Shown here piece after piece: positions 5,307 through 55,001 of a DNA stretch of 64,000 nucleotides. Source of the stretch: Cinnamomum chago (taxonomy: Eukaryota; Streptophyta; Magnoliopsida; Laurales; Lauraceae); the NCBI GenBank assembly GCA_038049695.1, contig CP142452.1:54642501-54706500 (forward strand), in the 5' to 3' direction. Every line of letters starts with the position of its first letter. Positions within the stretch are counted from its first letter, which is position 1. The notes under the pieces were generated by a model. That model ran no database searches, was not told the origin of the DNA, and was given only the letters and a program-made list of their open reading frames with translations. A program made the translations under genes and the position numbers.

Positions 5307-8300
5307 TGTAAGACCCCGTCCCGAGTGACCTCAATTAGTGTTATTTTAGTTGTGTTTTAGTTCTAAGTGTGATTAATGAATGTTGGTTAAGTTGGGAATA
5401 TAATAGATTTTGATATAGTTTTGGGGAGATTAGAGTGCTTTGGTGACTTGTGGGGCCCTTTGGGGGTTCCTTTCTATGACTTTGCATGTGCTTGGGGATT
5501 TATCAGAGATTCTTGCATTCATTGTTTTAATCCCGTTTTGTTTATCTTGTTAATCCCTACAACTTTTATGTTGATCCCGTGCCCGTCCGAGATCCCGAAA
5601 CCTGATTTCCTCGCTATGAGGGCAAAACAGTCTTTTTACACTAAATCTGTACCCAAAACTTGATATCCCCGAAACCCGTGAAACATATCCTTTTTGGAAA
5701 CTAGATATTTCGGTGATCATTTCTTCCTTGTTCGTCGAATTCATCCGAAGTCCTGAAAACCGTGATTTCAGCCCAATGAGATTATCAATAGTGGAGCCCA
5801 CTCCCCACTTGTTTATAAAGAAACCCTTCTCCCTCATTTCCCTTTTCTAGTACAAGCTTTAGCTAGGGATTCCCTTTTCTCTTTCTTCTTCTTCTTCTTC
5901 TTGCTCTCTTCATCTCAATCTCCTACCAAACTTGCACCAACATCAAAATGGACTTCATCATTCTCTTCCTCATCTCGAAGGCTACCCATTGATGTCATTT
6001 TGAGATAAAACCTCCCATCCCAAGATCTTCATTGAGGTTACTGTTGCCATTAGAGGACCTTACAAGTAAGTGATCCTCTCCATCTTATAGATTCGTATTC
6101 TTCTAGTCCTAGAGAAGCTTCATCTCCTTTATTGTGAGTTCTCTCCTTCTATTCCATGTTTTGACTCTTTTAGGATTTGTATTTGGGGATTTTTGTTCAT
6201 AGCTTCGATTCTTTGCTTGGAGGAGTGTTAGAGCTTGATTTGCTTGATTAGCTTGGACCCAAGGCAAGTGGATGATTTGATTTTCATGAGCTTATAATGG
6301 TTTTGGTATTTCCACTCATGCCTATTTATTGTATTGATTTGAAATAAATGTTCATGATAGAGCATTGATAGTTCATTTTTGTCATAGAAATGTATTGGTG
6401 CATAGCATTTAATTTTCTCTTGTTTTATTCTAAATGTACTCTTATGTGTAATGGTTTCCTTCTTTCTTTCTTTGTATTGGATGTGATGTTGATGGAGGAG
6501 AATGGATTGGATATTGTAAGAGATTTGCTGTTGTTTTGAATGAAGTTTTGGACTCCTCATTGGATGTATAAAAGAGGCTAGAAAGAGGTTGTAGAAGGAA
6601 GAGATAGAGAGGAACTGAACTGTCCCGGAATCAGTTTCTGGACAGTTCGCTCGAGCGAAGTGTCCAGAAATGGGTTCGGAGCATTCCAGAGGGCAGTTCG
6701 CTCGAGCGGACCCTTTGGTCGCTCGAGGGAACCTCCCATAACTCGTTCCAGAGAGTGGTTAGTTCGAGCGAACCAATACTTTGCTCGAGCCAACCTGACT
6801 CTGGATGAGTTCGCTCGAGCGACCTCAACTTCGCTTGAGCGAACCCACCCAGACAACCATTACAGAGAGCTAACCGCTTGAGAGAACCTCTAGTCCGCTC
6901 GAGCGATTGGTACTGTTCACCTGGGACTGTTTTGGGAGCATAAATAAAATGCTTATATATTTGAGAGAGGTTTGTTGGGAACTCCATTGTATTGAGAAGA
7001 ACTGTTCATATGATTTGACATCCGTTTGAGAAAGAAACCACGTCACGAAGATGTCATTTGAAGTTGTAAAAATCCTAAGGTGTATAAGGAGCTCGGAATG
7101 TCCCCAAACTCAAAGAGTATCAAGTGGTCATTAAATCGACATACGGGACCCCTATTCACCTTAAACGAATCTTGAACCCCGGTACTTGTCTTGAGATTTT
7201 GAAAGTTCATTTGTATTTTACTATTTCCCGAACTTCTTATGTATTCTCGAAAATGCCGAAATTGCAATTGTAGCATCTTGTTAGCCTGATAAGCATGCCC
7301 GAATTTATATGACAGTTGTGCCTTTGAGCACCCCGTCCCATTTATTTATATACTTACACTTGATGTACTTTATACATGTTTTAATCTTGTTATTTGACCT
7401 ATGAGTCGGCACCACTAAGCTTGGATAACCCTGTTGGTCCGATCCACCGACTAGGAGATCCCCCTCTTGTCCCGCCAGCTGCAGTTTGGATCCCGCTACC
7501 CGGTTATTACCGTGGTCTTGTCCCGATGCCGCCGATTGCTACTGTGGTTCCCGATGCCCGGCTCGCTACCGTGGTCATGTATAGTATATGTATATGTATT
7601 TATAAGATCCACTGTTTCTCCTCACCTCGAGTGACTGAGATCAGTGCCTAGTTATTGCTCTTTCACTTTAGTGATGGAGGATTTAGCTTCGTGTGGTTGC
7701 CATCTTACTTGTTTCCCCGTTTCCTTGGTTACCTTTACATGTTTTACAATGCACACTTGTATTTGAATAAATGTTTTATTTAGTTTATAGAAACTGTTAT
7801 TTAAACAAGTTTTTAAATGCTTTTGAAGGTAAATTCATTTATTATTTTATTGTCATTGTATTTTACCCATTTGCCAAACCGTCGTGTTTGACCCCCTCTG
7901 TGGTACTCAGGTCCGGATATTGTCTATCCCGAGGCGGAGCTTGAGGATGCAGTCGGCGAACCGCAGTGCCTAGTTGAGTGGCATGTTGATGATGTCATTT
8001 AGACATTTGGTTGCTACGAGAGACGTGATATTTTGGGAACGTTTAACCATTCTTTAGGGATTGGTATTTTGTTTATATTGGCCTTTGTTGGCCTCTATTT
8101 TTGGGAATGTAATTAAATGATCTTTTGTATAAACTTTAACTTACATTTGGAAAACATGCTAATGATCATTGCTCATTCTGATACAGTATTATACTTGTGT
8201 TATTGTCTTTATGAATAAAGATGGTTTGAATATTTGATTTGCTACACGCTTCCGCACTTAGTAGAAATGTTCATATATGGTTGTGATATCCTCACCGCGG

Positions 8301-8406
8301 ACACCTATGGGAAATTAAATCTTTACACTCATCACCTAACATCTCACCACACCACATTACTCCCGATCCCGGATTAGTCCGATAGGCCCGGTCCGGGGTC
8401 GTGACA
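5307..8406 (+). mobile_element. Solo LTR of a chromovirus (Tekay/Del-like), 3.1 kb
   Basis: It begins TGTAAGACCCCGTCCCGAG and ends GGTCCGGGGTCGTGACA, flanked by a perfect CTGGG duplication, with no PBS, coding region or second LTR. It is therefore a solo LTR, the usual product of LTR-LTR recombination. The termini match in form the chromovirus LTR at 60,993-63,887 (reverse strand, TGTTAGACCCCGACC … TTCCGGGGTCGCGACA), which supports the family call. It interrupts element 1 between KEDLLLG and the protease domain. A palindrome cluster lies at 6,648-6,905, with AT-rich TATA-like sequence at about 6,940-6,960. A second TATA-like site, TTTATAAAG, is near 5,812. Confidence 0.88.
6648..6905. repeat. 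Cluster of CGCTCGAGCG palindromes in the chromovirus solo LTR
   Basis: Exact or near copies of the 10-bp palindrome CGCTCGAGCG start at 6648, 6699, 6720, 6761, 6782, 6812, 6832, 6875 and 6896. Successive spacings are 51, 21, 41, 21, 30, 20, 43 and 21 bp, so most copies form pairs 20-21 bp apart. The cluster ends about 35-50 bp before TATA-like sequence (TAAATAAAAT, then TTATATAT at about 6,953). Confidence 0.9.
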
Positions 8407-22943: not shown

Positions 22944-22960
22944 CACTACTAGAAAAAAGG
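22944..22960. repeat. CACTA terminal inverted repeat, left
   Basis: CACTACTAGAAAAAAGG, matching the reverse complement of the right end (CACTACTAGAAAAGAGG) at 16 of 17 positions. Confidence 0.93.
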
Positions 22961-22964
22961 GCTT

Positions 22965-23450
22965 TTATATCGGCTAAAAACCGATATAAAAGACCTATTA
23001 TATCGGTTTTTCAGTAAGCTTTAAACCGATATAAGTACCCCCGATATAATAAACAACAATAACCGATATAATATGTGTAATATTTCATATCGGTTTTTGG
23101 ACAACTGATGTCTTTTGAACCCGGAAATATAACACATATTATTGTAAAACCGATATAAAATAAAAGTAAAACCGATATAAAAAATATTTATCATATCGGT
23201 TTTCGATAAACTGATGTGTTTTGAAACTGAAATTACTGTAAAACCGATATAAAAAAGAGTGAAACCGATATAAAAAAAATTTATAATATCGGTTTTCGGA
23301 GAACGGATGTGTTTTGAGACTGAAAACCGATATAAAAAAGAGTGAAACCGATATAAAAATAATTTATAATATCGGTTATAAAGGGCTTTGTTATATCGGT
23401 TTTTTTGGATTGTATTATATCGTTTGTTCTGTAACCGATTTAATATTATA
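22965..23450. repeat. CACTA left subterminal repeat array (ACCGATATAAAA)
   Basis: About 20 copies of ACCGATATAA or its reverse TTATATCGGT occur in both orientations, often facing each other. Arrays like these are the binding sites of TNPA-type proteins in En/Spm. Reading frames across this region are repeat artefacts. Confidence 0.88.
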
Positions 23451-23911
23451 TATGCATTTTTTTTTATCAAAAGAATTTGCATTGATGCAGTACCATTAAT
23501 GCAGCACAGTACTGTACACCAATAAAACTTTGCACTATATATACACATTAATAAATTGATCATATATATATAACTAATTAATAATTAACATAATAAAGCT
23601 TGACTAGACAAATTGCTCTATGGAAATATTGTGTGTGTATATATATATATAGTATATATCTACATCATCTTCCATGGGATGTACAAAAAGTTGGAACTAT
23701 ATATAAACAAAAAAACCAAAAGATAAATAATCATAATTTACCTCCAGAGCTTTCATCTTTTCGCTTCCCTTGGAGGCAAGACCCAACTCCTTTTTTACTG
23801 GCGCTAGCTATGATCAGTTTCTGAAAAAAATTTACACTGAATCATCTGTGAAATTGCACTCAATCAACCTGTGTAGGGTTTGAAGGTCCTACCTCTAATG
23901 TAGGTTGTCCT
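23451..23911. other. CACTA internal left region without genes
   Basis: AT-rich sequence with a short TA dinucleotide run (about 23,630-23,660). No conserved coding region is visible. It ends at the truncated retrotransposon LTR. Confidence 0.5.
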
Positions 23912-25090
23912 TGATAGTGCAGGCTAGGGCCAATGACTAAGTCCTAGAGGGGGGGTGAATATATAGGACTAAGGGAATCAATTATACCAATTTTAAACTT
24001 TTTAGGGCACTTATAATAAAACCAGAACAGATAACAGAACAAATGTAAGAAGATCAGAAAGACTTAAGTAGCATATGTGTTCAACAAGACAGCTTAAACA
24101 ATACCAAGCAAAGAGATACAATTAGATGAGTAGATAAGCTCAAGTGTGTGTGTCTATTGAATCTTAGTGATGACCTATCATACATAACAAATCCCACAAT
24201 ATAGATATAGAAATGATTAAATCATGCCACAAAGAATAGACACAGGCAACTTCTCACACAACACACTCATCTTGGAGCTAATGGAGCTCTAGGATTTTCC
24301 TAAATGTACTATACATGAGTGTTTGGAACAAGATTTGAGAGCTAAGATATGTTGGGAACAAAATAGCCTGCAAAAGCACTCTCAAAAGAGTCACTGTGAA
24401 AGGAGAAATAAGCTCCAGATTTATAGAAAAGATCCAACGGCTATGTTGGCGGCTAGCCCCTTTAGACCAGCGGCTAGCCGATTTCAAATAACGGTCTAAA
24501 ATTTCAAATCAGGTTAGCTCACGGCTAGCCGCAGGAACAGTTGGAGGCTAGCCGTGAGGCAGCCGCAAGATGATCTGACAAAAACACAGCCTCTGGAAAG
24601 CAAAACGAAATCCCACGGTTAGCTCTGCGGCTAGCCGTGGGTGACTGGCGGCTAGCCGTGGGTGCACTGGCGGCTAGCCGCATGTGCACTTGCGGCTAGC
24701 CGCAGGAAGCACAGAAAAAAAATTTGAGAAACTGCTTACTGGAAAGCTAGCCGCAGGTCTGGCGGCTAGCCCCTTTGCAAGGGGCGGCTAGCCGCAGGTG
24801 ACCGTAGGGTCACCTGACCCTTTCCACAGGGACTAATTATCAAGGATAAAAAACATGAGTTTAAAATACAACTTTTCCCAGGGATCTAATTAAGGGTGGG
24901 TATGAATTACCTGAAAAGGTTGTCAAGCACAAATGGAGACCTTCTTTGATTAATCCGGACTTTCCCACAAGCTTGATAATCCTTCTGAATGTGATCTTCC
25001 TTGAGTCAATTTGAGAGGCAAGAACTTTGGACCTCATTGGCGTGGAATTGACAAACAAAACTCAGTGCACACAGACATGTGACACTTACA
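23912..25090 (-). mobile_element. 3' LTR of a copia-like (SIRE-type?) retroelement inside CACTA
   Basis: Begins TGATAGTGCAGG and ends …GACACTTACA on the + strand. On the - strand a purine tract AAAGGGGGAGAT immediately precedes it (25,091-25,102). The terminal segment CCTAGAGGGGGGGTGAATA is shared with the copia LTRs at 47,121 and 53,103. A TATA box (TATAAA on the - strand, 24,420-24,425) lies next to a cluster of CGGCTAGCCG palindromes. No second LTR, PBS or matching target duplication was found, so the element is truncated at its 5' side. Confidence 0.78.
24450..24794. repeat. Cluster of CGGCTAGCCG palindromes in the copia-like LTR
   Basis: Exact or near copies start at 24450, 24471, 24522, 24545, 24628, 24649, 24671, 24693, 24763 and 24785. 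Adjacent spacings are 21, 23, 21, 22, 22 and 22 bp within groups. A further half-copy (CGGTTAGCTC) at 24616 is 12 bp from its neighbour. The first palindrome starts 25 bp from the TATA box on its promoter-proximal side. Confidence 0.92.
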
Positions 25091-25102
25091 ATCTCCCCCT
25101 TT
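25091..25102 (-). other. Polypurine tract of the truncated copia-like element
   Basis: AAAGGGGGAGAT on the - strand, directly adjoining the 3' LTR. The copia element at 49,010 uses the same tract. A second similar tract (AAAAAGGGGGAG on the - strand) occurs at about 25,362-25,373. Confidence 0.75.
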
Positions 25103-25632
25103 GTCAATTTCGTGACAAAATCATTTAGCTAATACAAGATTACAGAAGATATCCAAAACAACTCAAAGAACAACCATATACTATCTACAAGACCTTTTAC
25201 AACTGAAAAACGAATACAAGAACAAAAAGGCATCAAGACTAGTATGCATAGCTCTTCATATGAGATTGAGAAGTTGAACCTGTAAAAGCACAACACTAAC
25301 AAACAGAGATTAAAAGCATGAGAATGGAGATGGATTCTCTCCCTGCAAACTTAAACCATACTCCCCCTTTTTGTCACAAATTGAACAAGACAGAATAACC
25401 ATGGATGTAGAGAAGACAGACAATAAATGCAAGAAGATAATAGACAATTAAAGCATAAAAGCAGTTCATCACTAAGACCATAAAAACATCCATATCCAGT
25501 GAACATCCATAGAGAGTAACCAACATAAGTTTAAACCAATTAACCATAGGAGGGGCAGCCACAAGCCAAAAGAACACCACCAAAAAGATTACAACCAATA
25601 AAAACACAAGTGGCTATGAATCCCCAAAAGAA

Positions 25633-26829
25633 CTAATCTGACGGAGGTGAAGGAAACGGAGGCATGATAGTAGCATCTTGAGTTCTGCACGCTTTTGACA
25701 GTCCACTGAGATATTTGAGAGTCTTCTTTAGAAGCTTTTCGGTTTTGGACTGATTGCGTTCGAAAGCATCCATCCGTTCTTCAATACTCCGGGGAACCGA
25801 TGAAGAGGAAGCCTGTCGATGTGAAGAGGAAGGAGCGAGCCCTGAAGGTGCCTGATGTTGAGGAGCTAAAGGGGCTTGGGGTTGAGGATGAGGGGGTACA
25901 TCCCCTTCTTCTTCATATGGAAAGAGATTCATCTGAATTAGATTAGCGGTGCCAAAAGGTGTATGGGAAATAGTAGGCTCATTTGGGCGGAGAACACCAA
26001 GAGACCGAGCTATTTGAGAGATGAGGAAGCCAAAAGGGATTGCTGGCTTAGAGGCAGTGGAGAGGTGAAAGCGAACAATGGTTCTACAGATAAGAGAGGG
26101 AAGACACATTTGAACACCTGACACCACTTTAGAAAGAACATTTACCATATACGCAGTTAATTCAGTCCGATTTCCTTTACGAGGATAGACATTGAAGGTG
26201 AATAGGTGGTGCAACAGCCTGTATTTTGGAATGAGGGATCCCAATGGAAGGAAGTTCTTAGGATCCCATTTAACAGAACGACCACATAGAACAATAGTAG
26301 CCTGGGCCTTTTCAGCTTCAGTGAGGGTGTCAGACACCATGGAAAGACGATCAGGGTTCATTGGAATATTCATGATTGAAGAGATAAGATCGGGATCAAC
26401 CGTAACTTCTTTGTTTTGAAAGGCAATTGTGAAGGAACATAAGTCAACGGAAGATACTGCACCAGTGATTGAAGCAAACACGCCAAAAACAAGAGACGGA
26501 TATGCTTTGTCCCCCCAGTCTAACATGTTTTCCCATCTGACCTGAGCAAGAATGGTTGCTGACTCATGGGGATTTACAACATTACGCAAAGTGCGTCTTT
26601 CAACCATGATTGATCTTTTTTTCAAAGCATCCAGAATTTGGGCATTGGGTTTGAGAACAGCAGAGCCCGGCTGTGGAGGAGGAGAAGAAGGAGGGGTAAG
26701 AGAAGGAGAGGTGGACTGAGAGGTAGGCTGAGAGGGTGAGGGAGATCTAGTTCTACGAGAAGAGGAGGCAGCAGTGGATCGTCCTCGTTTAGCAGGGCGG
26801 TTCACAGCTGTTTTCATTCGTGGAGGCAT
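25633..26829 (-). CDS. 'Putative plant transposon protein' domain ORF in the truncated copia-like element
   Basis: About 398 codons from MPPRMKTAVNRPAKRGRS to a TGA near the 3' LTR. The open frame extends to 27,039, but the added N-terminus is hydrophobic low-complexity sequence, so the Met before the basic Ser/Pro-rich tail is preferred. Residues ~20-75 are Ser/Pro-rich. Residues ~90-280 resemble the conserved domain annotated as putative plant transposon protein in many plant retroelements (DKAYPSLVFGVFASITG … VRFHLSTASKPAIPFGFLIS). A Pro/Gln-rich linker and a short basic coiled coil (ERMDAFERNQSKTEKLLKK) end the protein. Its biochemical role is unknown. It stands where gag-pol would be, so the element is non-autonomous. 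Confidence 0.7.
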   Translation of the reverse strand: MPPRMKTAVNRPAKRGRSTAASSSRRTRSPSPSQPTSQSTSPSLTPPSSPPPQPGSAVLKPNAQILDALKKRSIMVERRTLRNVVNPHESATILAQVRWENMLDWGDKAYPSLVFGVFASITGAVSSVDLCSFTIAFQNKEVTVDPDLISSIMNIPMNPDRLSMVSDTLTEAEKAQATIVLCGRSVKWDPKNFLPLGSLIPKYRLLHHLFTFNVYPRKGNRTELTAYMVNVLSKVVSGVQMCLPSLICRTIVRFHLSTASKPAIPFGFLISQIARSLGVLRPNEPTISHTPFGTANLIQMNLFPYEEEGDVPPHPQPQAPLAPQHQAPSGLAPSSSHRQASSSSVPRSIEERMDAFERNQSKTEKLLKKTLKYLSGLSKACRTQDATIMPPFPSPPSD

Positions 26830-27039
26830 TTTTACAAACACCTGGAGTGCACAAGAAAACACTAGGAGGAAGAAAACACAGCATAGAGTGAAAAGGCAGG
26901 ATTTAGAAGAAACAAGGAAGAGAAAATTACACGACAATAAGTAATATGAAGAAAGAAACCAATGGAAGAGAGAAATGGAGGAAGTTGGAAAGAGAGAAAG
27001 AAAAGAGAAACACCAAAACGAAACAGATACTGTTAACAA

Positions 27040-27775
27040 AATGGAAAAGAAAATAATTCTACAGAACTGAAATATAAGAGAAAAAGAAGGGAAGATACCT
27101 TGGAGGAAGAAGGGAGAAGAGGATCAGATACGTAGCAATGAAGAAGACCAAAGAAGGAAGAGAACAGTAGCTAACCGAAAGAAAAAGAGGGAAACGAAAA
27201 GCAACTTAAAAGGGCGCAGGCCCAGTATGCGGTTAGCCGCATGAATTTTCACGGCTAGCCGAAAAAGCCCCCTTTTTTTTTTTTAAAGAGTATCTGCAGG
27301 ATGAATATTGTGTAAATCAGTTAAGGATGGACCATCTGTTTGGCCATAAGAACGAGGCCATAAATGCTCCCCTACAAGGAACATGAAGCAAATAATCATG
27401 CTAATGCTCATGCTCAATTTGAGCTCACACCCAAATTTCAAGCTCACTCACATTATCAAGCTGAAGCTCACTGCAGTTAGCAGCCATCCTACAGAAGCTC
27501 AAAAAAGCTTGTGGGATGCCCTGGTGTACCGCTGCTCCCCGATTAGTTGTCCAATGAAAAATGGACCTACAAGGCATAAATCACTTCATCGATCAATACT
27601 TTGCAAGAGAAGCCTATCTAATATGTATATGCTTCCTATCATAAATGACATAGTAGTAAGTTTTAAGAACATTTTGGATGGTAAAAGCTTGTGGGAAGTT
27701 GACACTTCCCCTATTCGATGAATCAAGACAAAACATGCATTCATGACAATTTAGAGGCAAAAGCATAGAATGTAC
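27040..27775. other. Region between the copia-like remnant and the CACTA Ulp1 gene
   Basis: Two palindrome-type words (CGGTTAGCCG at about 27,231 and CGGCTAGCCG at about 27,251) and a T-run near 27,273-27,286 mark probable LTR-derived sequence at the truncated 5' end of the copia-like element. The rest is probably 3' UTR of the Ulp1 gene. No gene is supported. Confidence 0.45.
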
Positions 27776-30700
27776 CTATTCAACATTGTTGATAAAATCT
27801 AAAATGTATTCAACTAACTCCAAACGTAAATCATTAAGCTCCTCATCGCCATATGTCGCTGCCTCCCCAAGTTCTTTCAACTTAGATTTTGTCGACACGA
27901 GAGGATCTTCCATAAGATGCTTTCATAAATTTCATTACATAAACCCCGCATTCCTTTTTCCCCGTTTGCTTAGGACACTACATAGAGACCATAAAAAGCA
28001 TACAAATTAAAAGGATTATGTTGTATGTGTGATATCATAAACACAATTATTCATTGCTCACCTTCACCAATTCCCAAGTTGGATTTCCTTTAATTCTTTT
28101 TCCCATTTCCATAGCTGCCACTTTCATTGCACTTCACACAACGATATCCATTTAGACTTAGTATTTTAAAAGAGAAGCCTTGAAAACAAATGAACAAGAA
28201 GAATTAATGGACTACTCACTCATTCACTATGAACTTTACATTCAAGTCAACAACCTTTCGTACCAAGGAGTCCAACCAGAACACTTCCATTGATGTCATA
28301 TCAATGACTAATAGAAGCCAATGACCCCTAATTCCATAAAAGCGGACGGATTAAATGACAAATAAGATTTAATTACACACAAGTGGATATAAAATGACTA
28401 CTAAGATAAATTGAAGACACGTGAAAATGGTGGAATGCCCTTACATGGTGGAGTATGGAACAAAAATCAGTTGGTCCTTTTTTGCAAATCTCAACCGCTT
28501 TATCATGTTGCGTTTCATCTCTTCTTTCTCTCCAAAATCATTGAAATGTGCAGGATGTGAAAATCCATATCTTGCTCGAGAATTTTCAAATCGATCGTAG
28601 AGAAACCTAAAGAAATAAGGTAAATAAAATGGCCATAACATCAAATAGATTAGAGACTGATATTTCTTAGGAAAAAGACAAATAGTTTACCTTTGGTATG
28701 CAGTCATTGAGTTAACCTCTAGCTTCTTCATGTTACAAAGATCTAACAAATCAGATTTGAAAAAATAATTGAATTCTATATCTTCTTCAAATACCCCTTT
28801 CTCAAATGGAATACTTATCTGACTTGATTTCATCATCGTTTCTATAATCTTGCCAAACTTTTGAAGCTGACTTGCCCCTTCACCATTGTTTGCATCACCA
28901 TTAGCTGCAGAAGAATCATCAACCGCACTCTACATGGAAATCCAAATTAAAATGAAAAAGTTAATTACGGTAGTTTAACTTAAGCATAACTAATAAGAGT
29001 TGGAAAATACACTTTACCTTATCATCTAATATCACCCATTTTCCAGGCCAAGCCACAAATGAGTTGTGTGCATCTAAAATAGTGGTCAAAATACCACGTA
29101 CGGGTATAGGAAGAGGGGAATCAGGACACAATACACAATCTATCGACACTCGTACATTGTGCTCCCCTAAAGAAATATTGTGAATCTTTTCCAATGGTCC
29201 AGTCTTCCCATAAACCTTTCCTTTCGCAACAATCTTGTCCTTTGATCCCAATGCCAATCTACAATTCTGCATCTTCAAATAATATATAAGTACTAAATCT
29301 TACATCGACTAATGTATATAATACGATGAAACTAATGTTGGTTGTAATTTCTTAATTTAATAGCCGGCCCATAAAACATACTTGCGGGGAACCAAGATTA
29401 TTTGATGATGTCTGGTTCACTTTTGAAGTACCTCCATATTCAAGCTGCATGTTATAAGAGTTAAATACGAATTCAAATGGTTATTAACCAATGCATATAG
29501 TTAGGTAAAATAGTTAAGAAATCATGTATTCAACATAATATACCAAAACAACAAAAAACTATGGTTTAGTAAATTACCTGTTGACCTTTTAAAACGCCAC
29601 TACTATTGGATGCAATATTTTCTGAATGGGGAGAGTTCTGACGTGTCTCTATATCCTTCACAACTTGTTCTAAAATTCTCACCCTTTCTTGAGATTCATG
29701 TAACTGGGCCAACAACTCCTCATTATACTTCTTCGTTCCGCGTTTTGGTATTTTGAAATAGGCCATTGGAGTGACATGCTTCCCTTCCCCTCTAACTCGT
29801 CCACAATGCTCCGGGGTACCCAAAGCCATAGTAAGAACATCATTGCTCCCCTCAGTCATTACAGCCCCCTCATTTACTTTCTTTTTCAGATCATCCTACA
29901 ATAATCATGACACCAATGAATCCCGAGCCATATGTATATAGCTAATATTTAAATACCAATGAATCCCCTTAGGGAGAATACTCAACCTACAAGTTATAGT
30001 GAAGACGTTTGATGCCTCGCATCTACCTTGGGCACTCTTACAAAAAGTCTAAAACAATTTACAATTTTTCAAAGAATGAAAACTTACAATTTTTCCTACT
30101 ACTTCCCTTGTGGAATCATTTGAATAGTCCCCGTTTTTGTTTTGACGAGCCAATTTCCATTTGAGACTCCTATCTTCATGATCAACGAAAATGCCCGTCT
30201 CTTTGGAACACAATTAAACATCTAAGTTAGTTTAGTTCAACCGTAAGAAACTATTTAAAATAGTTCTATAGTAAATGTACTTACAATATCTTCTTCAAGA
30301 CCCGCATAGCCTGATCTGCTTAGTCGGTGTGTATACACATTATTGGACTGCCTTTTAGATTGTAGAATGTTTAACTCCTTCAAATTACAAAGAAGAAAAT
30401 ACATTATTGTGCCGGGGTGTGCTGCAGTGTACAGGGGTGTGCTGCAGTGCAGTTGTGGGCTGTGTGTGGTGTGCTCAGTGTTGTGTGAGTGAGTGCAATG
30501 GTGTGGCTCCACAAGTAATCTATAGAAGTAGATATATACCTGAAACTCTGGGGTCAACCTTGATTGCACAAATTTAGTCCAATCTAATTTATCGATAAAC
30601 TTATACTTTGTAGGTGGCTCCACAAGTAGTTCGGGATTATCTTTGAATGGAAGTATGTACTTAGTAGTCAAAGTTGTCTTGAACGTCCTCCACTTGAGGC

Positions 30701-31170
30701 CAATATCAGATATAACTTGAGCCTTAGTATTTTCATCCAACACAAATCTGGTCTATACCAAATGAATTAAATAGTAAAAAACGATAAATAGCTTAGTAAG
30801 GCACATATTATTCTAAGGTCTTCCAAAAGTAACAGGAAATCACATATTTATTTACCTTCATTGTATCCCATAAATCTCTTTCCAGTTGCCCTTCCCTAAG
30901 ATCTTTCAATTTACGCCAATCACTAACTGCGTTAAGTGGGACCATCACTCTTGCCAAAGCCCCTTCATAACCAGCTATTTTCCGGCGTACTTCTTGTGGT
31001 GTAGGCCTACCCTTTTGATCATACTCAACAGTAATTACCTTTCCATCCCAATTCTTGGTCAACTCAAGCATTAAAGTTGTCCCCCTAGCTTTCCTTTTTT
31101 TTTGAATGCGGTGTTCACCAACATTACTTATGTTGTCCTGTGATTCACGAAAATGACTTTCTGGATCCAT
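27776..31170 (-). CDS. CACTA second gene: Transposase_24 (Ptta/En/Spm) region with C-terminal Ulp1/C48 cysteine protease
   Basis: Multi-exon gene on the - strand, downstream of TNP2. Approximate exons, each ending at a GT donor: 31,170-30,856; 30,752-30,540 (YILPFKDNPELLVEPPTKYK, Transposase_24-like); 30,379-30,286; 30,205-30,089; 29,896-29,580; 29,446-29,384; 29,273-29,018 (DUF8039-like, KVYGKTGPLEKIHNISLGEH); 28,931-28,692; 28,617-28,445 (AKKDQLIFVPYSTM); 28,333-28,215; 28,134-28,058; and ~27,970-27,776. The last exons form a Ulp1-type protease. His is in GHWLLLVIDM (CAT 28,321-28,323), Asp in VFWLDSL (28,270-28,272), Gln in CPKQTG, and Cys in KECGVYVM (27,948-27,950). All four catalytic positions are present. 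A one-base frame break is apparent just after the Cys, near 27,925. TNPA-like DNA binding plus a SUMO-protease-like activity is inferred from family knowledge. A 5' exon may precede 31,170. Confidence 0.75.
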
Positions 31171-31387
31171 TACTAGCTGTGAAAAAAAAAACATACATAT
31201 CAATAAATATATTGTGTATGTCATGGAATAGGTAATACATACAACAATGCAATGCATAGCATACTAACACTACCACTAAGTGTGACATCAGTTCAAATAA
31301 CCTATATATGCTTCTTACAAAAAAGTACATAAGGGAATATTTAGCAATAATAAACACTTACACAAAAAACACAATTATAATACATTT

Positions 31388-34300
31388 TCAAATATCAATG
31401 TCAGTCCAAGTCCCCTCAGCATCTTCACGCGTGTACATTGACTCAGATTCATTTATAGCATCCAATGGTTCATCCAATTGCATTACTTCATGACGAGTTT
31501 GATCTTCAAAGCCAGCATCAAAGAGGACTTCTTCATTGTCATCAACATTATAGGTTCTTTCAGGAGTTGCTAGAGCAATGGACCATTTATGATTGACTGG
31601 ATCAGGTACATAGAAGACTTTCTTTGCTTGAGAGGCTAAAATGAAAGAATCAGATTTATAACCAATTCTAGCCAGATCAACTATGGTGAATCCCAGCTCA
31701 TCTACCTTAAAGCCAGTCTTGTTGTCAACCCAATCACACTTGAACAATGGGATTTTGAAATGACTATAATCAATCAACCATATTTCCACAATAACACCAT
31801 AGTACCCTGATTCACAGAAAACAGGATTATTATCCTTTGCACTAGACACGTTCATCGCCGTGGCCACTAGACTTACACCACTATTCTGAGTGACATGTGA
31901 AGCATCACGATCCTTTGTGGTAAAATGAGAACCATTAATGGTATAACTATGATATTTTATAACGTGTATACGAGGACCTTGTGATACCCATCTCAAGATT
32001 TCTGAGGTGTTGTTACCGGTGACACGTCGATCTTCAAAAACCTGTGTTCCTAAGAAAGTTAGTCACATTTAGTAAATAGACACAACACAAGTCTTATGAT
32101 TGACAATTGTTACCTCGTTTTTGAGCCAAGAACTAAAAGAACGGTTATGTTCATCTTGTAACCATTTAAGAATTTTGGACTGCCGAGGAAATGTTTTCTT
32201 TAGGTGGTTCATGTGTCTCCTGCATAGTTTTCCATACGAACCGCATGTTAGCGGTAAAACTAGTGTAACGCTTTAATTTGTAAGTCAAGAAGTTAAAATA
32301 CAATTACTCAATATAGGGTTGAACAACACTTGTGTTGTGCAATACATAACAATGTGCTTGCTCCAAGGACTTAGCATCAACTTCAACAAAATCACCTCCT
32401 GGAGGTTTCTTGCCAGTCACAATTTCAGGGTAAGTTTTATCTTCAAATGGTGGAATTCCAACTGCATCCAATCCAGAGAAGTGCTCACTACAAAATTCAA
32501 CCGCTTCCTCTGCAATATAACACTCTGCCATGCAACCTTCTGGACGGTAACGATTTCTTACTTGACCTTTTAAAACCGACATATACCTAAAACATAGTAA
32601 ACCATTGATTACTTTAAATAATTTAAATTAGTAAATTACACTTGAAGAATATTTAAAGTTATTCATACCTCTCAAATCCATACATCCATCGGAAACAAAC
32701 AGGGCCCCCAATCTGGATTTCTCGAACGAGATGGACGGTTAAATGAACCATAATATCAAAGAATGATGGTGGGAAATATTTTTCTAGCAAACACAAGGTG
32801 ACCACCAGATTCTTCTGAACTTCAAGCAATCGAGGTACATCTACTACCTTCGCACATAACTCATTAAAAAATGAGCAAAATCTGATAAGTACAACTCTCA
32901 CATGTTTTGGTAGCACGGATCGTATAGCAACAGGAAGTAATTGCTGCATCAACACATGGCAATCATGAGATTTCATACCCCCCAACTTTAAGTCTTGCAT
33001 AGAAACCAATGCTCTGAAATTTGATGAGTATCCATCTGGAACTTTTAACTTATGCAATGTTTCACACACACTGGATTTCTCTTCTTTGGATAATGAGAAA
33101 CAAGCTGGTGGTAAGTACGCTCTATTCTGACTTACATCAGGTGCCAGTTCATCCCTTAAACCCATATCCTGCAAATCAAGGCGACTATTCAGTCCATCCT
33201 TTGTTTTACCTGGAATATTCAGCAAGGTTCCAATAAGACTCTCACAAACATTTTTCTCTATGTGCATCACATCCAAGTTGTGTCGAAGAAGCAAGTATTT
33301 CCAGTAGTCGAGGTTAAAGAAAATTGACTTCTTCTTCCAACAAATTCTAGCACCATCATCACTACCATCTTCCACTCGCTTCCTCTTCAATGAAGTCGAT
33401 CTTTTTGATTTTTTTTTCTTTTTCTTGGGCTTCTCTTTTGGTACTGGTTTCCCCCACAAGGTTTTGATTCCATTAACCTTTTCTGCCACTTCTTCACCAG
33501 TCAAAATCATTGGTGCTTTTCGAAACTCTTGCTCACCATTAAATGATTTTTTCTGTTTCCGAAAGGGATGATCTTCTGGAAGGAACATTCGATGGGCCAT
33601 GTATACGTTCTTCCTCGAATGTTTTAATCTGCATGATTGTGTCTGTTCGCCACATATGGGGCAACCATGATAGCCTTTTACAACACAACCAGACAAATTA
33701 CCATATGCAGGGAAATCATTAATGGTCCACAACAACATTGCTTTCAACGTAAAAGCCTCTTGTCGGTAAGCATCATGAGCTTTAACCCCTGTATCCCATA
33801 GTGTTTTCAAGTCATCGATTAATGGTTCTAGGTAAACATCGATGTCGTTTCCAGGTTGTCGTGGACCCGATATCAACATCGTTAAAATCACAAACTTTCT
33901 TTTCATGTACAACCAAGGCGGGAGATTGTAAGTGACTAACATTACTGGCCAACAACTATACTTGCTGCTCATCGAACCATGCGGATTGACCCCATCCGCT
34001 GAAAGTGCTAAGCGCAAATTTCTTGGCTCTTGTGCAAACTCCGGCCATTTATCATCTACCAACTTCCATGCGGGGGAGTCAGCTGGGTGGCGTAACTTAT
34101 CGTCAACCAATCTCTCATCAGCGTGCCAAGTCATCTGTTTCGATGTCTGTACCGACTGAAATAATTTCTTAAACCTAGGGATAGGTGGAAAATACCATAG
34201 AACTTTTGCCGGCACCCCCTTACATTGCTCAGTCAGGTTCTTATTCACTTTGTATCTTGACTCACCACAAGTAGGGCAACTAGTTTTATTCTCATTATCA

Positions 34301-34971
34301 GATCCCTTTCTATAAAGCACGCAATCATTCGGACATGCGTCTATCTTCTCATAGCTCATCCCATACACAGACAATGTCTTTTTAACCTCTTTCATACTTC
34401 GGGGCAGTAAATTATTATCGTCGGGTAGCATGTCTCCAATGATTTTCAACAACCGTGAAAAGCTTATGTCAGACCACCCACTCCTTGCTTTCTCATTAAA
34501 CAATGTAACTACTGCAGATAATTTGGTAAACTTTAGACAACCTTTGTATAAAGGTTCCTCAGCCTCTGCAAGAATTCTTTGAAACTTTTCAGGATTTGAT
34601 GAATACTGGTCACAAGCGGTCTGAGCCAATTTTAATGAGCTTGCAGCATCATCTGGGGGTGTAGTATCATCTGGGACATCACTCCCAAAATGGTGTTGGG
34701 TGGACCTATTTAAAGGCACACTTGAGGGAGCTTCACCAGGAGATGCTTCTCCATGCCATATCCACCTAGTATAACTTCGATCGATACCATGGAAAAAGAG
34801 ATGGTACTCAACATCCTTAGCTACAAATTTATTGAGATTCCCACATGTTTTGCATGGACATGGCATGGGATTCCCATCACCAAACTTCTTTTTCGCAAAC
34901 ATAAAAAAACTTTCAACCCCTTCCCCGTATGCAATAGAAAACCGATTCAATGACATCCAAGACTTGTCCAT
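31388..34971 (-). CDS. TNP2-type CACTA transposase
   Basis: Exons on the - strand: 34,971-32,669; 32,586-32,308; about 32,23x-32,116; and about 32,044-31,388, all with GT donors and AG acceptors. The start MDKSWM is preferred over an upstream Met at 35,007 because it opens the transposase-associated domain (CPCKTCGN, residues ~1-75). The TNP2 core follows, with WHADERL, LALSADGVNPHG, CPICGEQTQ and HNLDVMHIEKNVCESL. A DUF4218 region (MKSHDCHVLMQQLLPVAIR … LEKYFPPSFFDIMVHL) crosses into the second exon, then a small exon (RRHMNHLKKTFPR), then DUF4216 (VIVEIWLIDYSHFKIPLFKCDW). Frames are open through all four exons. The protein should cut and join the element ends. Confidence 0.9.
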
Positions 34972-36740
34972 TTCTGAATAGCCCAATAAAATGCTACAGA
35001 CAAGCAATAATCAGAAAGTCATTGCCATATAATGCTAATATTACAACCAATTAATGTGAGAGAGACCTGGGTTGGTGTGCACCAAACGAACTGAATATCC
35101 TTGTTTCCAACCTTGGTTATTCTCGTTCGGGCAAAGCTTTCAGATTGGCTGAAGATTTGTAGAAATAAATCCATGGACAGAGATTCACCAAACAACAATA
35201 CAAAAGCAACCAAGTTCAAAAATTCACAATTAAACCAGATACAAATATTTAAAAAAATTAACCCACAGAGAAGAGTAATGTAGATAATCCACAGAAAAAA
35301 AAATGACTGACATTAATTGTGCAGAGATATAATTGTGCGTTGAAGTGACTATTCATGTCCCACTTACTGTAAATTGTGCATTTGAGGATAACAACTAGCT
35401 CAATTGCTCCCCTGTGACCAAGAAAAAAAAAACCATCTTCCAAAACCATCTTCCAAAACCCTCTTCCCAAACAAAAACAAACAAAAACCAACAAAACAAA
35501 CACCAGCACCAACAAAAAGTGAAAACCGAAATAAACAAAACACCAACACACCCCATCCACGACGTCTACCTCTCAGAAAATTGAATCAGGTTGGCTCACG
35601 GCTAGCCGCAGGAATAGTTGGGGGCTAGCCGTGAGGCAACCGCAGGGGTCATCGCAAGAGGGTGTTCTAAAAAAGTTGTCTCTGGAAATCAAACCGAACT
35701 CCAACGGTTAGCACTGCGGCTAGCCGTAGGTGCACTGGCGGTTAGCCGCAGGTGCACTGGCGGTTAGCCGCAGGACGTACTGAAAATCATCCTGAGAGAA
35801 TAGGCTTCCTGGAAAGCTGACCGTGGGTCTGGCGGCTAGCCCCCTTACAAAACACCTACAGTGCCAACCAAAATCCCATACCATAAAACCCAAACGCCCA
35901 AACGCCCAAACGTAACAGGTTAAAACAGATTGAGAAACATTGACAGTCAACAGAAACTACACTGTCAAAGAGGCACATAAAGCTTCTTCCTGGAATGAAA
36001 ATACTGAGTAGAGCTAACAAGCCCAAACAAATTAAGTTAGGGAAAAAAAAAACATAACCATAGCCATAACCATAAGATCCATCAGAAAGAATCCAAAAAT
36101 AAAAATAAAAAAAAAGGAAAGAAAGAAACAACCATTTTGAAATTGAGATAGAACTAACAAAAAGATAAGATGGTTAGGAGAGAAATGAAAAAAACAAAAA
36201 AAAAGGTCCATGACCCAAAATTGCAAAAATAAGAACTCCAATGTCTCATCTTTACAACCCAAAAATTAAACAGGAAAAAAAGGAGATAAAAAGACCCACT
36301 TATAAAATAGTAGCAAAAGAAGAAGAACCAACCTCCATTCAAACAGATAGTAAGGGGCTTCTTCTAAGGATGCTCCTCTGCTTCAGCAAAATAGTAAAAG
36401 AGACTCCTCCCTCTCTTCTGAGAACGAGAGTGAGCGAGAGAGACAGGGAGAGCAGAGAGAGTAGAGAAAGCGACAGTGAGAGAAGAGCAGAGAGAGTAGA
36501 GAAAGCGACAGTGAGAGAAGAGCAGAGAGAGTGAGAGTGAGGAGAGGAGAGAGCGAGAGTGAGAGGAAAGGGGTTATTGGAGGGAGAGAGGCGCTGGGAA
36601 GAGAGGCGAGAGTGAGGAGAGAAGAGAGCGAGAGTGAGAGGAAAGAAGGAATGATGGAGAAAGAAAGAGAAGGAGGGAAGGAAAAATAAAAAGGAGGGAA
36701 AGAAGTACTAATCGATCGAGCCCCGCGCGGGCGATTAAGG
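34972..36740. other. Upstream region of TNP2 inside CACTA, with LTR-derived block and GA-rich repeat
   Basis: No gene is supported. Block 35,585-35,860 is clearly related to the copia-like LTR at 24,490-24,790, sharing the words and flanking sequence around each CGGCTAGCCG. Palindromes start at 35717, 35739 and 35761 (spacing 22). At 36,415-36,660 lies a GA-rich repeat with a ~35-bp unit (AGAGCAGAGAGAGTAGAGAA…) present at least twice. Long ORFs on the opposite strand here are low-complexity. Confidence 0.7.
36415..36660. repeat. GA-rich minisatellite
   Basis: Purine-only repeats on the + strand, including two near-perfect ~35-bp units from about 36,447. Such tracts often lie near plant promoters; here it is upstream of TNP2. 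No coding role is supported. Confidence 0.75.
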
Positions 36741-36744
36741 GATT

Positions 36745-37213
36745 CGAATAACCGATGTAATATGATTGGATATATAATATCGGTTTCAAAACAACGGACA
36801 TAAAAGATTATATAACACTTGCGGTTAGCCGCAGGTGCACTGGCGGTTAGCCGCATGTGGACTTACGGTTAGCCGCATGTGCACAGCGGCTAGCCGCAGG
36901 ACGTCCTGAAAAGGGAGGGAAAATAAAAAGGAGGGAAAAACCGATATAAAACATGTGTTATGTAGGTAAATAAAATATTTGTCTATAATAACGGTTTTAT
37001 AATAACCGATCTAAAATATTGATATTAATATCACATCTTTTCTTAACCGATATTATATATAGACATTATTATATCAGTTCCTGTTTAACCGATATAAAAA
37101 AAAGTTTACCGATATAATTAAATATTAACCGATATAAAATACCTTGAATGAAGATATTATATCGGTTATATGAAAAACCGATATAGGGTTCTTTTTGTAA
37201 CCGATATAAAAGA
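36745..37213. repeat. CACTA right subterminal repeat array, with an embedded palindrome block
   Basis: Copies of ACCGATATAA and TTATATCGGT recur in both orientations up to the right terminal repeat. Embedded at 36,822-36,896 is a separate block with CGGTTAGCCG/CGGCTAGCCG words at 36822, 36844, 36866 and 36887 (spacings 22, 22, 21), of the same type as in the copia-like LTR. Confidence 0.85.
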
Positions 37214-37230
37214 CCTCTTTTCTAGTAGTG
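37214..37230. repeat. CACTA terminal inverted repeat, right
   Basis: CCTCTTTTCTAGTAGTG, the reverse complement of CACTACTAGAAAAGAGG, followed by the TTC duplication at 37231-37233. Confidence 0.93.
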
Positions 37231-47120: not shown

Positions 47121-49009
47121 TGAAAGTCCACGAGGATCCTAACCCTAGAGGGGGGGGGGTGAATAGGGTGAGCTACAACTATGACCAAATTAAACCAATT
47201 TTAATTTCTTAAACAAAACTAGTCACATGTGATGAATAATCAATCAATATGCGGAAGCTAAACAAATCAATCACCACATAGCAATCACCACAACACAATA
47301 TTTATAGTGGTTCGGCCAACGTGCCTACATCCACTACCGGCTTGTGTCTCCAACACCCCACCGGATTCCACTAAGTATGCTTTTTCAAAGGCTAAGCAAT
47401 AACCCTAACAATGTTGTTTTTCTAAGGCTCAACAACAACCTTTACAAGATGCTTTTCAAGGCTAAGCAATAACCTATCAATGTGCTTTTAGAGGCTAAGC
47501 AATAACCTTTACAAAATGCTTTTCTTAGGCTAAGCAATAACCTTACACAATTCAAGATTTCTCAAAGAAAGTGTTTACTCAACACTCTAAGAGATTACAA
47601 TTTTAGCTCAATGAAATTGCCTCTTAAATAGGCGGATATGAAAGTTTAATACAAACTCACACAAACACTCTATGTATGCAAAAGTGTATGATTATGATGT
47701 GTGTGTGTGATGACTCCAATCAAGTTTAAAATGAAGGCTCACTCAATATATTGCTTAAAGCAATTCAAAGTTTAAAGCTCATAAAAGATTTGATTGAAGT
47801 CTTATGCAAATCACATGTATGAAATTCAACTTGTTTATGACATAAAAATCAAGAACTAACAAGTTGTATAAAAATGACTAATTTAGAACATGTGATGCAT
47901 GTGCATGTTGTTTTCAAAACCAAATTAATTTTACTAATACTTAAATGAATGAAAACAACAAGCAATGTTTCAACCAAGTAAAAGACTCATGCTATGAAAG
48001 AAAAACAAAGATTTTGTCTAAGCATGATTTAAAAAGTTAACAACTTGGATTGAAAACAAAGGTGAAGAATCCAATCTTAATTAGACCAAAGATTAGAAGA
48101 ATAATGGATTCAACACATCATAGTTATTATGCTAAATATCACATACCAATAGTTTAAACAAAGCACATAACTATGATTAATAAAGGTAGAGCTTACTTGG
48201 TGGTTTAACTTAATAATCCAAGCTTTCGCTCTCCTAAATGCCTCCTAGCCTTTCCAACTTCATCCCCTTTCAATGGCTCCAAAATGCTCTCAAAGGTTCA
48301 TAGTTCAAGCATTGAAAAAGGTTGGAAATGAATGGACTTTATAGCCAAAAAGTTGCCAACGGCTAGTTCTCGGTCGACCGGCAAAGAGGTCTCGGTCGAC
48401 CGGGAAGGCACAACGGTCATAAAAATGACCGTTGGAGGCTTACAGTTCAAAAACTGTACATTTGTCCTGCAGTGTTCTCGGTCGACCGAGACCCAGGTCT
48501 CGGTCGACCGGCGACACTGCCGGGACTCCCCCAAAAATTCCAACTTTTGCATTTTGAAGATTTTCTTTGTGGAATTTTGTGGGTCACTAAACCAAGCTTA
48601 AAAACATGTTTTAAAACATTTAAAAACATGAAACACACAAAGCCTAAAATGATTCAAAGGTTTAAAACCAAAGGCAAGCTTGATTAGTAAAAACTCTTTT
48701 CAATTGAAATTGCATACAAAATGATTCTTTTTGTGAAGAATGTATGCAAGACTCAAACCTAAATACACAAGATGATTTTCCAAATGTAGTGCACAAGGAA
48801 ATAGGTTTTCAAAAGAGTTTGGGTTTCAAAACTAATGCATCCAAGTTTAAAACCAAACCATGCATAAAACAAAAGCTTTTCCAAATCTTAAAAGCTATGC
48901 ATGAATAAAACTAGATTTCAAGATATTTTAAATCAATGCATGTGTGTGAACTCAAATGATGCCAATATGCAAATGCATCCACCAAATTGCAAAAACAAAA
49001 TACCTAACA
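47121..49009 (-). repeat. 3' LTR of the copia element
   Basis: TGAAAGTCCACGAGG … AATACCTAACA. It includes a G10 run near 47,150, a TATA box on the - strand (TATAAA, 48,338-48,343) and CGGTCGACCG palindromes at 48371, 48393, 48479 and 48501. The PPT abuts its inner end. Confidence 0.95.
48371..48510. repeat. CGGTCGACCG palindromes in the copia 3' LTR
   Basis: Four exact copies of the 10-bp palindrome start at 48371, 48393, 48479 and 48501, forming two pairs with 22-bp spacing. The nearest starts 28 bp from the TATA box on its upstream side (element strand). Confidence 0.95.
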
Positions 49010-49021
49010 ATCTCCCCCTTT
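49010..49021 (-). other. Polypurine tract of the copia element
   Basis: AAAGGGGGAGAT on the - strand, directly before the 3' LTR. It is the same tract as in the truncated copia-like element at 25,091. Confidence 0.85.
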
Positions 49022-53001: not shown

Positions 53002-53081
53002 ATAAGCACAACTCTAGGGTTTTAACTCTAGGTTTTTACACCTAATCAAGAGTTCCAAACACTTGATCCTAAGGGATTAGA

Positions 53082-53100
53082 GCACTTGGCTCTGATACCA
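53082..53100 (-). other. Primer-binding site of the copia element (initiator tRNA-Met)
   Basis: TGGTATCAGAGCCAAGTGC on the - strand, 2 bp from the 5' LTR. TGGTATCAGAGC is the classic copia complement of initiator tRNA-Met. Confidence 0.93.
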
Positions 53101-53102
53101 AT

Positions 53103-55001
53103 TGAAAGTCCACGAGGATCCTTACCCTAGAGGGGGGGGGGGGGGGGGTGGTGAATAGGGTGAGCTACAACTATGACCAAATTAAACCAATTTTAATTTC
53201 TTAAACAAAACTAGTCACATGTGATGAATAATCAATCAATATGCGGAAGCTAAACAAATCAATCACCACATAGCAATCACCACAACACAATATTTATAGT
53301 GGTTCGGCCAACGTGCCTACATCCACTACCGGCTTGTGTCTCCAACACCCCACCGGATTCCACTAAGTATGCTTTTTCAAAGGCTAAGCAATAACCCTAA
53401 CAATGTTGTTTTTCTAAGGCTCAACAACAACCTTTACAAGATGCTTTTCAAGGCTAAGCAATAACCTATCAATGTGCTTTTAGAGGCTAAGCAATAACCT
53501 TTACAAAATACTTTTCTTAGGCTAAGCAATAACCTTACACAATTCAAGATTTCTCAAAGAAAGTGTTTACTCAACACTCTAAGAGATTACAATTTTAGCT
53601 CAATGAAATTGCCTCTTAAATAGGCGGATATGAAAGTTTAATACAAACTCACACAAACACTCTATGTATGCAAAAGTGTATGATTATGATGTGTGTGTGT
53701 GATGACTCCAATCAAGTTTAAAATGAAGGCTCACTCAATATATTGCTTAAAGCAATTCAAAGTTTAAAGCTCATAAAAGATTTGATTGAAGTCTTATGCA
53801 AATCACATGTATGAAATTCAACTTGTTTATGACATAAAAATCAAGAACTAACAAGTTGTATAAAAATGACTAATTTAGAACATGTGATGCATGTGCATGT
53901 TGTTTTCAAAACCAAATTAATTTTACTAATACTTAAATGAATGAAAACAACAAGCAATGTTTCAACCAAGTAAAAGACTCATGCTATGAAAGAAAAACAA
54001 AGATTTTGTCTAAGCATGATTTAAAAAGTTAACAACTTGGATTGAAAACAAAGGTGAAGAATCCAATCTTAATTAGACCAAAGATTAGAAGAAGAATGGA
54101 TTCAACACATCATAGTTATTATGCTAAATATCACATACCAATAGTTTAAACAAAGCACATAACTATGATTAATAAAGGTAGAGCTTACTTGGTGGTTTAA
54201 CTTAATAATCCAAGCTTTCGCTCTCCTAAATGCCTCCTAGCCTTTCCAACTTCATCCCCTTTCAATGGCTCCAAAATGCTCTCAAAGGTTCATAGTTCAA
54301 GCATTGAAAAAGGTTGGAAATGAATGGACTTTATAGCCAAAAAGTTGCCAACGGCTAGTTCTCGGTCGACCGGCAAAGAGGTCTCGGTCGACCGGGAAGG
54401 CACAACGGTCATAAAAATGACCGTTGGAGACTTACAGTTCAAAAACTGTACATTTGTCCTGCAGTGTTCTCGGTCGACCGAGACCCAGGTCTCGGTCGAC
54501 CGGCGACACTGCCGGGACTCCCCCAAAAATTCCAACTTTTGCATTTTGAAGATTTTCTTTGTGGAATTTTGTGGGTCACTAAACCAAGCTTAAAAACATG
54601 TTTTAAAACATTTAAAAACATGAAACACACAAAGCCTAAAATGATTCAAAGGTTTAAAACCAAAGGCAAGCTTGATTAGTAAAAACTCTTTTCAATTGAA
54701 ATTGCATACAAAATGATTCTTTTTGTGAAGAATGTATGCAAGACTCAAACCTAAATACACAAGATGATTTTCCAAATGTAGTGCACAAGGAAATAGGTTT
54801 TCAAAAGAGTTTGGGTTTCAAAACTAATGCATCCAAGTTTAAAACCAAACCATGCATAAAACAAAAGCTTTTCCAAATCTTAAAAGCTATGCATGAATAA
54901 AACTAGATTTCAAGATATTTTAAATCAATGCATGTGTGTGAACTCAAATGATGCCAATATGCAAATGCATCCACCAAATTGCAAAAACAAAATACCTAAC
55001 A
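53103..55001 (-). repeat. 5' LTR of the copia element
   Basis: Near-identical to 47,121-49,009. The length difference of 10 bp is fully explained by a G17 versus G10 run plus GTG beside it. The PBS is adjacent on the inner side. It carries the same four CGGTCGACCG palindromes (54,363-54,502) and TATA box. Confidence 0.95.

Follow-up and report, generated by a model that had tools for sequence, protein, structure and literature searches.

In a 64,000-nucleotide stretch of contig CP142452.1 from the Cinnamomum chago assembly GCA_038049695.1 (positions 54,642,501 to 54,706,500, forward strand; hereafter the window), we identified arrays of 10-bp palindromes, or dyads, in the long terminal repeats (LTRs) of copia and gypsy retrotransposons and within a DNA transposon. 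The dyads stand just upstream of the TATA box in Sirevirus LTRs, and chromovirus LTRs and a CACTA transposon contain similar arrays. Between diverged Sirevirus LTRs, the dyads and the accompanying AACGG/CCGTT motifs are conserved, the spacers much less so. We read the arrays as promoter arrays of the repeat motif (RM) type, in which the dyads would be sites for dimeric host transcription factors on one face of the DNA, and give this reading a probability of about two in three. The kind is already known for Sireviruses and is not an undescribed system.

The degenerate word CGSYYRRSCG matched 36 sites in the window, in comparison with a mean of 0.49 in shuffled sequences (largest shuffle 3). Apart from one solitary site at 21,140, outside arrays, the sites form eight clusters spread over four hosts: a solo chromovirus LTR (E1), a Sirevirus-type 3′ LTR and its CACTA carrier (E2), a Sirevirus (E3), and a second chromovirus LTR (E5; Table 1). 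The first-pass annotation had reported such palindromes from four LTRs, and the words are indeed present at or near the positions that it named, well beyond chance frequency. Its arrays at 48,371 and 54,363, however, belong to the LTR pair of one element and form a single observation, and the array that it began at 24,450 reads CGGCTAGCCC there, the first perfect box lying at 24,471. All words were said to fit CGSYYRRSCG, but several boxes are imperfect dyads, for example the eight copies of CGGTTAGCCG. These are all on the plus strand (27230, 35739, 35761, 36822, 36844, 36866, 62514, and 62628), where CGGCTAACCG has no copy. A step of 20–23 bp, claimed for all arrays, is the commonest one but not universal: the exact copies of CGCTCGAGCG at 6,648 are separated by 51, 113, and 84 bp, the 20-bp step of E1 emerges only when one imperfect box is included, and the remaining window arrays also show steps of 51–118 bp. 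Boxes beyond those reported earlier lie at 27,230–27,261, 35,599–35,770, and 36,822–36,896.

To place the arrays in context, we compared them within one genome, that of the window's own species. A pattern for the junction of the Sirevirus 5′ LTR and primer-binding site (PBS) matched 3,743 times, and its control 0 times. We sampled the 20 junction loci that come first along contig C1, with arrays ignored in the choice. At least two exact copies of CGGTCGACCG were present in 17 of the 20, and boxes with up to 2 mismatches in 19; in all 19, the last box starts 34–40 bp before the TATA box. Such a short fixed distance is seen in 19/20 Sirevirus loci and not in E5. The combination of box, linker, and TATA (GGTCGACCG-TAGCCGTTGG-TATAAA) gave 10,384 genome matches (control 0).

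Close pairs of one word, with steps of 15–45 bp permitted, numbered 1,865 for CGGCTAGCCG, 12,450 for CGCTCGAGCG, and 15,859 for CGGTCGACCG genome-wide, and 0 for each reversed-pattern control. Spacings were taken from the first 50 pairs per word on one contig, related copies included. Among these 150 listed pairs, 137 stand at 19–23 bp and the other 13 at 30, 31 (four pairs), 32, 42, 43 (four pairs), 44, and 45 bp. By word, the counts are 42/50 at 19–22 bp, 5 at 31–32, and 3 at 43 for CGCTCGAGCG; 47/50 at 21–23 and 3 at 42–44 for CGGCTAGCCG; and 48/50 at 20–23, one at 30, and one at 45 for CGGTCGACCG. The listed steps thus group around lengths of two, three, or four turns of the helix. The 50 CGGTCGACCG pairs contain 36 different spacers; the 12-nt spacers have a mean identity of 0.53, in comparison with 0.34 for random letters of equal composition, and so are partly related by descent.

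The linker TAGCCGTTGG, which reads CCAACGGCTA on the other strand, fits YCYAACGGYYA, the 11-letter consensus of the mitosis-specific activator (MSA) element. According to the available part of PMC10905365, MSA elements have an AACGG core near the transcription start, in either orientation and often repeated, and are associated with G2/M promoters and MYB3R factors. Exact matches to the consensus number 4 in the window, where 0.19 are expected, and all are inside array blocks. The presence of TAGCCGTTGG next to TATAAA in both copia-type blocks, noted in the first-pass annotation, was confirmed. We had arrived at the MSA reading on the basis of E2 and E3, ahead of sampling the 20 loci; of these loci, 17 contain the exact 11-mer and 19 have AACGG upstream of TATA. 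The core lies at −88 to −92 from TATA in 16 loci, 13 of them with CCGTT at −72/−73, and is thus near the presumed transcription start as judged from TATA. By sequence downstream of TATA, the 19 box-bearing loci (without L079) fall into 8 clusters. Among the 8 representatives, aligned with motif borders set on one of the eight rows, motif columns have a mean pairwise identity of 0.86 (AACGG-type motifs alone 0.83) and spacers 0.45. In E3, the AACGG/CCGTT motifs form a near-perfect inverted repeat of ~22–26 bp (54405–54430 and 48413–48438), near the box step.

The hosts differ in how fully they show Sirevirus identity. Multiple polypurine tracts (PPTs), a poly-C signal, and a PBS are all present in E3, the LTR pair of which is 99.3% alike, while E2 is a carried fragment without PBS. 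The 4.1-kb interior of E3 gave no Pfam matches in the three minus-strand frames and a pol domain was not found there; one open reading frame (ORF) had a subthreshold coiled-coil match (PF14915, 19.5 bits vs. a cutoff of 35). E1 and E5 are chromoviruses without Sirevirus host identity, and their arrays are RM-like, not Sirevirus RMs.

The earlier assignment of E1 and E5 to chromoviruses holds, as does the observation that ACTGAACTGT beside the array is common to both; the array at 6,648 lies within an LTR as proposed, but this LTR is a solo one. Among 22 E1 copies with the LTR start located, 9 have a PPT upstream of the LTR and 8 of those 9 also a peptide of the pol C terminus. For copy L029, this peptide matched PF00385 (Chromo) with E = 7.3e-5 and 23.0 bits, below the curated cutoff of 25.1, and solved structures weakly (best E 0.022; one chromo domain protein, E 0.31). 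The end of the peptide upstream of E5 matches that of E1-family copies, and the family has the chromodomain at the pol C terminus, adjoining the 3′ LTR. We rejected the alternative that E1 and E5 are parts of the neighboring dual-RNase-H gypsy elements (8.4–13 kb and 43–60 kb), since E1 is a solo LTR with target-site duplication (TSD) CTGGG and its copies have the chromodomain end upstream. Array identity among E1 copies is 0.918, in comparison with 0.935 and 0.900 for the flanks; the array is thus conserved like its flanks and gives no clear sign of selection.

The E2 array had been placed in a copia LTR as such but proved to lie in a piece of a Sirevirus LTR carried by a multicopy CACTA, recognized by matching terminal inverted repeats (TIRs), a 3-bp TSD, and a tnp2-type transposase. 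A genome search with the E2 block gave 1,297 candidates, of which 40 were scored and 30 loci fetched, the window's own included. The CACTA left arm aligned in 29/30, which rules out a free copia LTR, and similarity begins at the CACTA end (22,943–22,945) in 16/30. An origin of the array from native CACTA subterminal repeats was rejected as well. The Sirevirus source follows from the PPT, the poly-C signal, and PBS-followed relatives of the LTR end, L089 and L090, which were picked for E2-like LTR ends. L089, a free Sirevirus LTR, contains three copies of CGGCTAACCG, one of CGGCTAGCCG, TAGCCGTTGGG, and a TATATA; no boxes were found in the fetched stretch of L090. The CACTA carries four RM-type clusters. 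Two of these (35.6 and 36.8 kb) lie 5′ of the transposase without other LTR parts and are possibly a borrowed promoter. The ORF at 25633–27120, a candidate ENV gene by position, lies just 3′ of two boxes.

Evidence for exchange of the words comes from four further LTRs (L002, L003, L006, and L008), which are 74–78% identical to the E1 LTR on both sides of a nonaligning block with CGGYTAGCCG boxes inside. The block measures ~0.55 kb; disregarding a short far-edge match, which does align in L002, L006, and L008, would extend it to as much as 0.84 kb. At the block edge, CGCTCGAGCG boxes persist, exact in L003 and L006 and degenerate in L002 and L008. The first-pass annotation had suggested that words are exchanged as a set and have repeated independent origins, with a single recent sequence transfer as one refuting case. 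Whole-block replacement is what we see, but the CGGCTAGCCG blocks of copia-type and chromovirus LTRs have nonpalindromic spacer motifs in common, which points to transfer; that case therefore applies in part, for CGGCTAGCCG. Between the CGCTCGAGCG and CGGTCGACCG blocks, no such common motifs exceed shuffles.

We masked the words and compared 36 block pairs, each with 200 shuffles. Twelve pairs set Sirevirus-type blocks (E2, L001, and c35) against chromovirus CGGCTAGCCG blocks (E5, L002, L003, and L005), and in three of them (E2–L002, E2–L003, and L001–E5) no shuffle was as good. With 36 pairs tried, single results of ~1/200 mean little; the stronger point is the recurrence of the same two motifs outside the words, CTTTCCAGTAAGC and ACGGTT..TTTTCCAGAGA, in both kinds of block. 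The E1 block gave 5/200 shuffles as good against E5 and 25–172 against others, and the E3 block 5/200 against E2 and 16–172 against others. Judged from these common spacer motifs, transfer of the CGGCTAGCCG block appears somewhat likelier than convergence. That the same word arose separately in copia and gypsy LTRs, converging on one host factor without transfer, is a possibility that we regard as real but doubtful: E1 and E3 have no shared spacers above shuffles (172/200), so different arrays can arise separately, and near-identical words are known from distant Sireviruses (Bousios 2010, available part of PMC2829016), but convergence does not account for the two motifs outside the words, nor for TTTTCCAGTAAGC in the free Sirevirus LTR L089 (found by eye, with no shuffle comparison).

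The same arrays also fold as RNA. Fold z scores were −7.8 for E2, −8.4 for E3, −10.0 for E1, and −8.1 for E5, with no shuffle equal, and shuffling the spacers only weakened the fold in 6/6 blocks (z −3.1 to −7.5, 0/100 as good in each). These values would suit arrays that act or are recognized as RNA, the U3 array at the transcript 3′ end forming hairpins and making or attracting small RNAs, a role reportedly proposed by Bousios and colleagues in 2016 for maize Sireviruses. On sequence alone, RNA hairpins and extended DNA dyads cannot be told apart. Palindromic repeats nevertheless fold well by construction, hairpins would require neither box steps of roughly whole helical turns nor the conservation of neighboring AACGG and TATA, and the common variant CGGCTAACCG on the sense strand would set C opposite A in its own hairpin; we consider an RNA role unlikely. 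Functionless tandem duplication, in a part of the LTR that evolves rapidly, would explain the 22-bp tandem units of E2 (90% matching) and the flank-like array identity among E1 copies, but with CGGTCGACCG words and step kept while spacers vary (36/50 different), this explanation is already strained, and the footprint of 0.86 vs. 0.45 makes it highly improbable. CACTA TNPA binds subterminal repeats, and several arrays are in the CACTA, including two located 5′ of the transposase ORF, as one would expect if the dyads bound an element-encoded protein; given that elements of different classes have arrays and that E3 has an array and no pol domain found in its interior, we give this idea very little credence.

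Several observations weigh against the promoter-array reading or its parts. L079 lacks a box, some loci lack motifs, and CCGTT stands 18–20 bp before TATA in just 12/20 loci. The chromovirus blocks E1 and E5 are without the exact MSA-like 11-mer, and no TATA was found within 200 bp downstream of the E5 array. Many boxes deviate from a perfect dyad, with a single polarity, so binding as a strict dyad is not required at every site; the transcribed strand folds far beyond shuffles with a contribution from the spacers, which would also suit a hairpin role. Because the copies share descent, the genome counts are not independent trials. As for transfer, the other nine pairs are weaker, eight at 1–4/200 and E2–E5 at 22/200, and E2, L001, and c35 are all CACTA-carried.

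Under the promoter-array reading, each dyad is a predicted binding site of a dimeric host transcription factor, and dyads on one helix face would let the dimers cooperate. In Sireviruses, the flanking MSA-like AACGG motifs may recruit MYB3R-type factors and thereby favor transcription in dividing cells. Words would differ between lineages, each being matched to a factor or paralogue of its own. Recombination may have moved the CGGCTAGCCG block between the LTRs of Sireviruses and chromoviruses, and a CACTA element carries several copies. Less probably, a helically phased dyad cassette with its spacer motifs circulates as a unit among copia and gypsy retrotransposons and a DNA transposon, word sets being replaced wholesale between conserved LTR flanks, with host factors shared and the Sirevirus MYB3R-type sites directing expression to dividing cells. 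If so, unrelated elements of one genome would be under the same host transcription factors, and block replacement with kept flanks would be a route for unrelated retrotransposons to gain new control regions. The conserved MYB3R-type motifs and the two-turn dyad spacing make the question of the binder directly testable.

Table 1. Arrays, promoter motifs, and host elements in the window (window coordinates)
Feature	Position	Strand	Details
E1 solo LTR, chromovirus family	5307..8406	+	~3.1 kb; TSD CTGGG; borders where copy alignments stop
E1 array, word CGCTCGAGCG	6648..6905	+	4 exact boxes, 9 with degenerate ones
CACTA (En/Spm) transposon	22944..37230	-	~14.3 kb; TIR CACTACTAGAAAA; TSD TTC
E2 Sirevirus-type 3′ LTR inside CACTA	23912..25090	-	PPT at start, poly-C integrase signal; borders by eye
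E2 TATA box TATAAA	24420..24425	-	
MSA-like motif TCCAACGGCTA at E2	24433..24443	+	TAGCCGTTGGA on the element's sense strand
E2 array, word CGGCTAGCCG	24450..24794	-	perfect boxes 24471-24794
ORF upstream of E2 LTR, env position	25633..27120	-	weak PF20167 (Transposase_32), 43.4 bits vs. cutoff 45
Two extra boxes just 5′ of that ORF	27230..27261	-	
Transposase_21 ORF of CACTA	32662..35010		
Further CGGYTAGCCG array upstream of transposase ORF	35599..35770	-	contains MSA-like motif 35700-35710
Further array, CACTA subterminal region	36822..36896	-	four boxes at 21-22 bp; strand not independently fixed
E3 3′ LTR	47121..49009	-	TSD CCTTC; poly-C signal; five adjoining CTCCCCC sites (PPT copies)
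E3 TATA and TAGCCGTTGG, 3′ LTR	48338..48343; 48356..48365	-	
E3 boxes, CGGTCGACCG x4, 3′ LTR	48371..48510	-	steps 22/86/22
E3 5′ LTR	53103..55001	-	followed by PBS TTGGTATCAGAGC
E3 TATA and adjoining conserved TAGCCGTTGG, 5′ LTR	54330..54335; 54348..54357	-	
E3 boxes, CGGTCGACCG x4, 5′ LTR	54363..54502	-	
MSA-like motif TCCAACGGTCA	54418..54428	-	arm of AACGG..CCGTT inverted pair; repeated at 48426-48436
E5 array, CGGCTAGCCG and half-sites	62396..62637	-	in chromovirus LTR starting 63887

Some further observations concern the elements themselves. Those with CGGTTAGCCG copies run on the minus strand where this can be judged (the 36.8-kb array alone cannot), and the polarity in L003, L006, and L008 matches that in the window. 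L001 and L007 are located among CACTA subterminal repeats, and L004 is a mixed LTR with E3-like stretches beside E1-like ones, probably a nested insertion. Several E5-family copies recur at intervals of 6.2–7.8 kb. Sirevirus junctions or promoters occur in tandem runs with constant steps at C1:39984687-40019218 (~6.9 kb) and C1:18724115-18740190 (~5.3 kb), which look as if LTR–interior–LTR units had been arrayed. The gypsy elements of the window at 8386–13043 and 43440–60407, the latter broken by the E3 Sirevirus, have an RVT_3 domain that resembles RNase H, as do elements of the Tat lineage; the domain is clear at 58257–59318, after RT/RNase H, and below cutoff at 11734–12282.

The description of the arrays as one architecture with different words was apt, but the view that no described system explains it was not: the Sirevirus case was described in 2010 (PMC2829016, BMC Genomics 11:89). 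According to the available part of that paper, RM boxes are palindromic motifs of 13 Sireviruses, 12 with a CGG–CCG core, situated in the LTR upstream of TATA; they form CpG islands, have at least eight copies per element, differ in word in most elements, and have extra copies 5′ of ENV, and the Tnd-1 word, like that of E1, is without the core. The same portion calls RMs Sirevirus-specific relative to the classic Ty1/copia set examined, and its authors were unable to name the binding factor; its three "gypsy" passages do not concern RMs, and neither "myb" nor "chromovirus" is mentioned in it. An epigenetic reading of Sirevirus LTR palindromes (Bousios 2016 as cited in PMC5311732, available part) agrees with ours in assigning them to the LTR's regulatory portion, our own reading being drawn from sequence. 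The internal tandem repeats of Retand, as far as described in the available part of PMC11963269, are distinct from these arrays. Among the titles and abstracts retrieved from the open-licence PubMed Central literature, we found no description of palindromic arrays in chromovirus promoters, of MYB or the cell cycle with Sireviruses, MSA/MYB3R with LTRs or mitosis-specific LTR promoters, or of modular LTR evolution of this kind, and nothing pertinent on LOB-domain factors as binders. The AACGG core is shared with MSA/MYB3R sites known from host cell-cycle genes; here, the candidate sites are in LTRs. With En/Spm elements, the CACTA has in common the TIR, the 3-bp TSD, and the Transposase_21 (tnp2) gene, but it differs in that a Sirevirus 3′ end and additional arrays of the RM type lie within it. 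The closest likeness is to the Sirevirus RMs: the Vitis word CGGTCGACCG given in the available part of the 2010 paper is identical to that of E3, and E1, E2, E3, and E5 all have a multicopy palindrome in the LTR, though E1 and E3 with only 4 exact copies per LTR, and the CGG–CCG core is present in E2, E3, and E5 but not in CGCTCGAGCG of E1. Unlike in that part of the paper, arrays are here also in chromovirus LTRs and a CACTA. Within the literature covered, the RM-like arrays in chromovirus LTRs, the steps near whole turns for three words, the conservation of MSA-like motifs among Sirevirus promoters, and the presence of several arrays in a CACTA would appear to be new.
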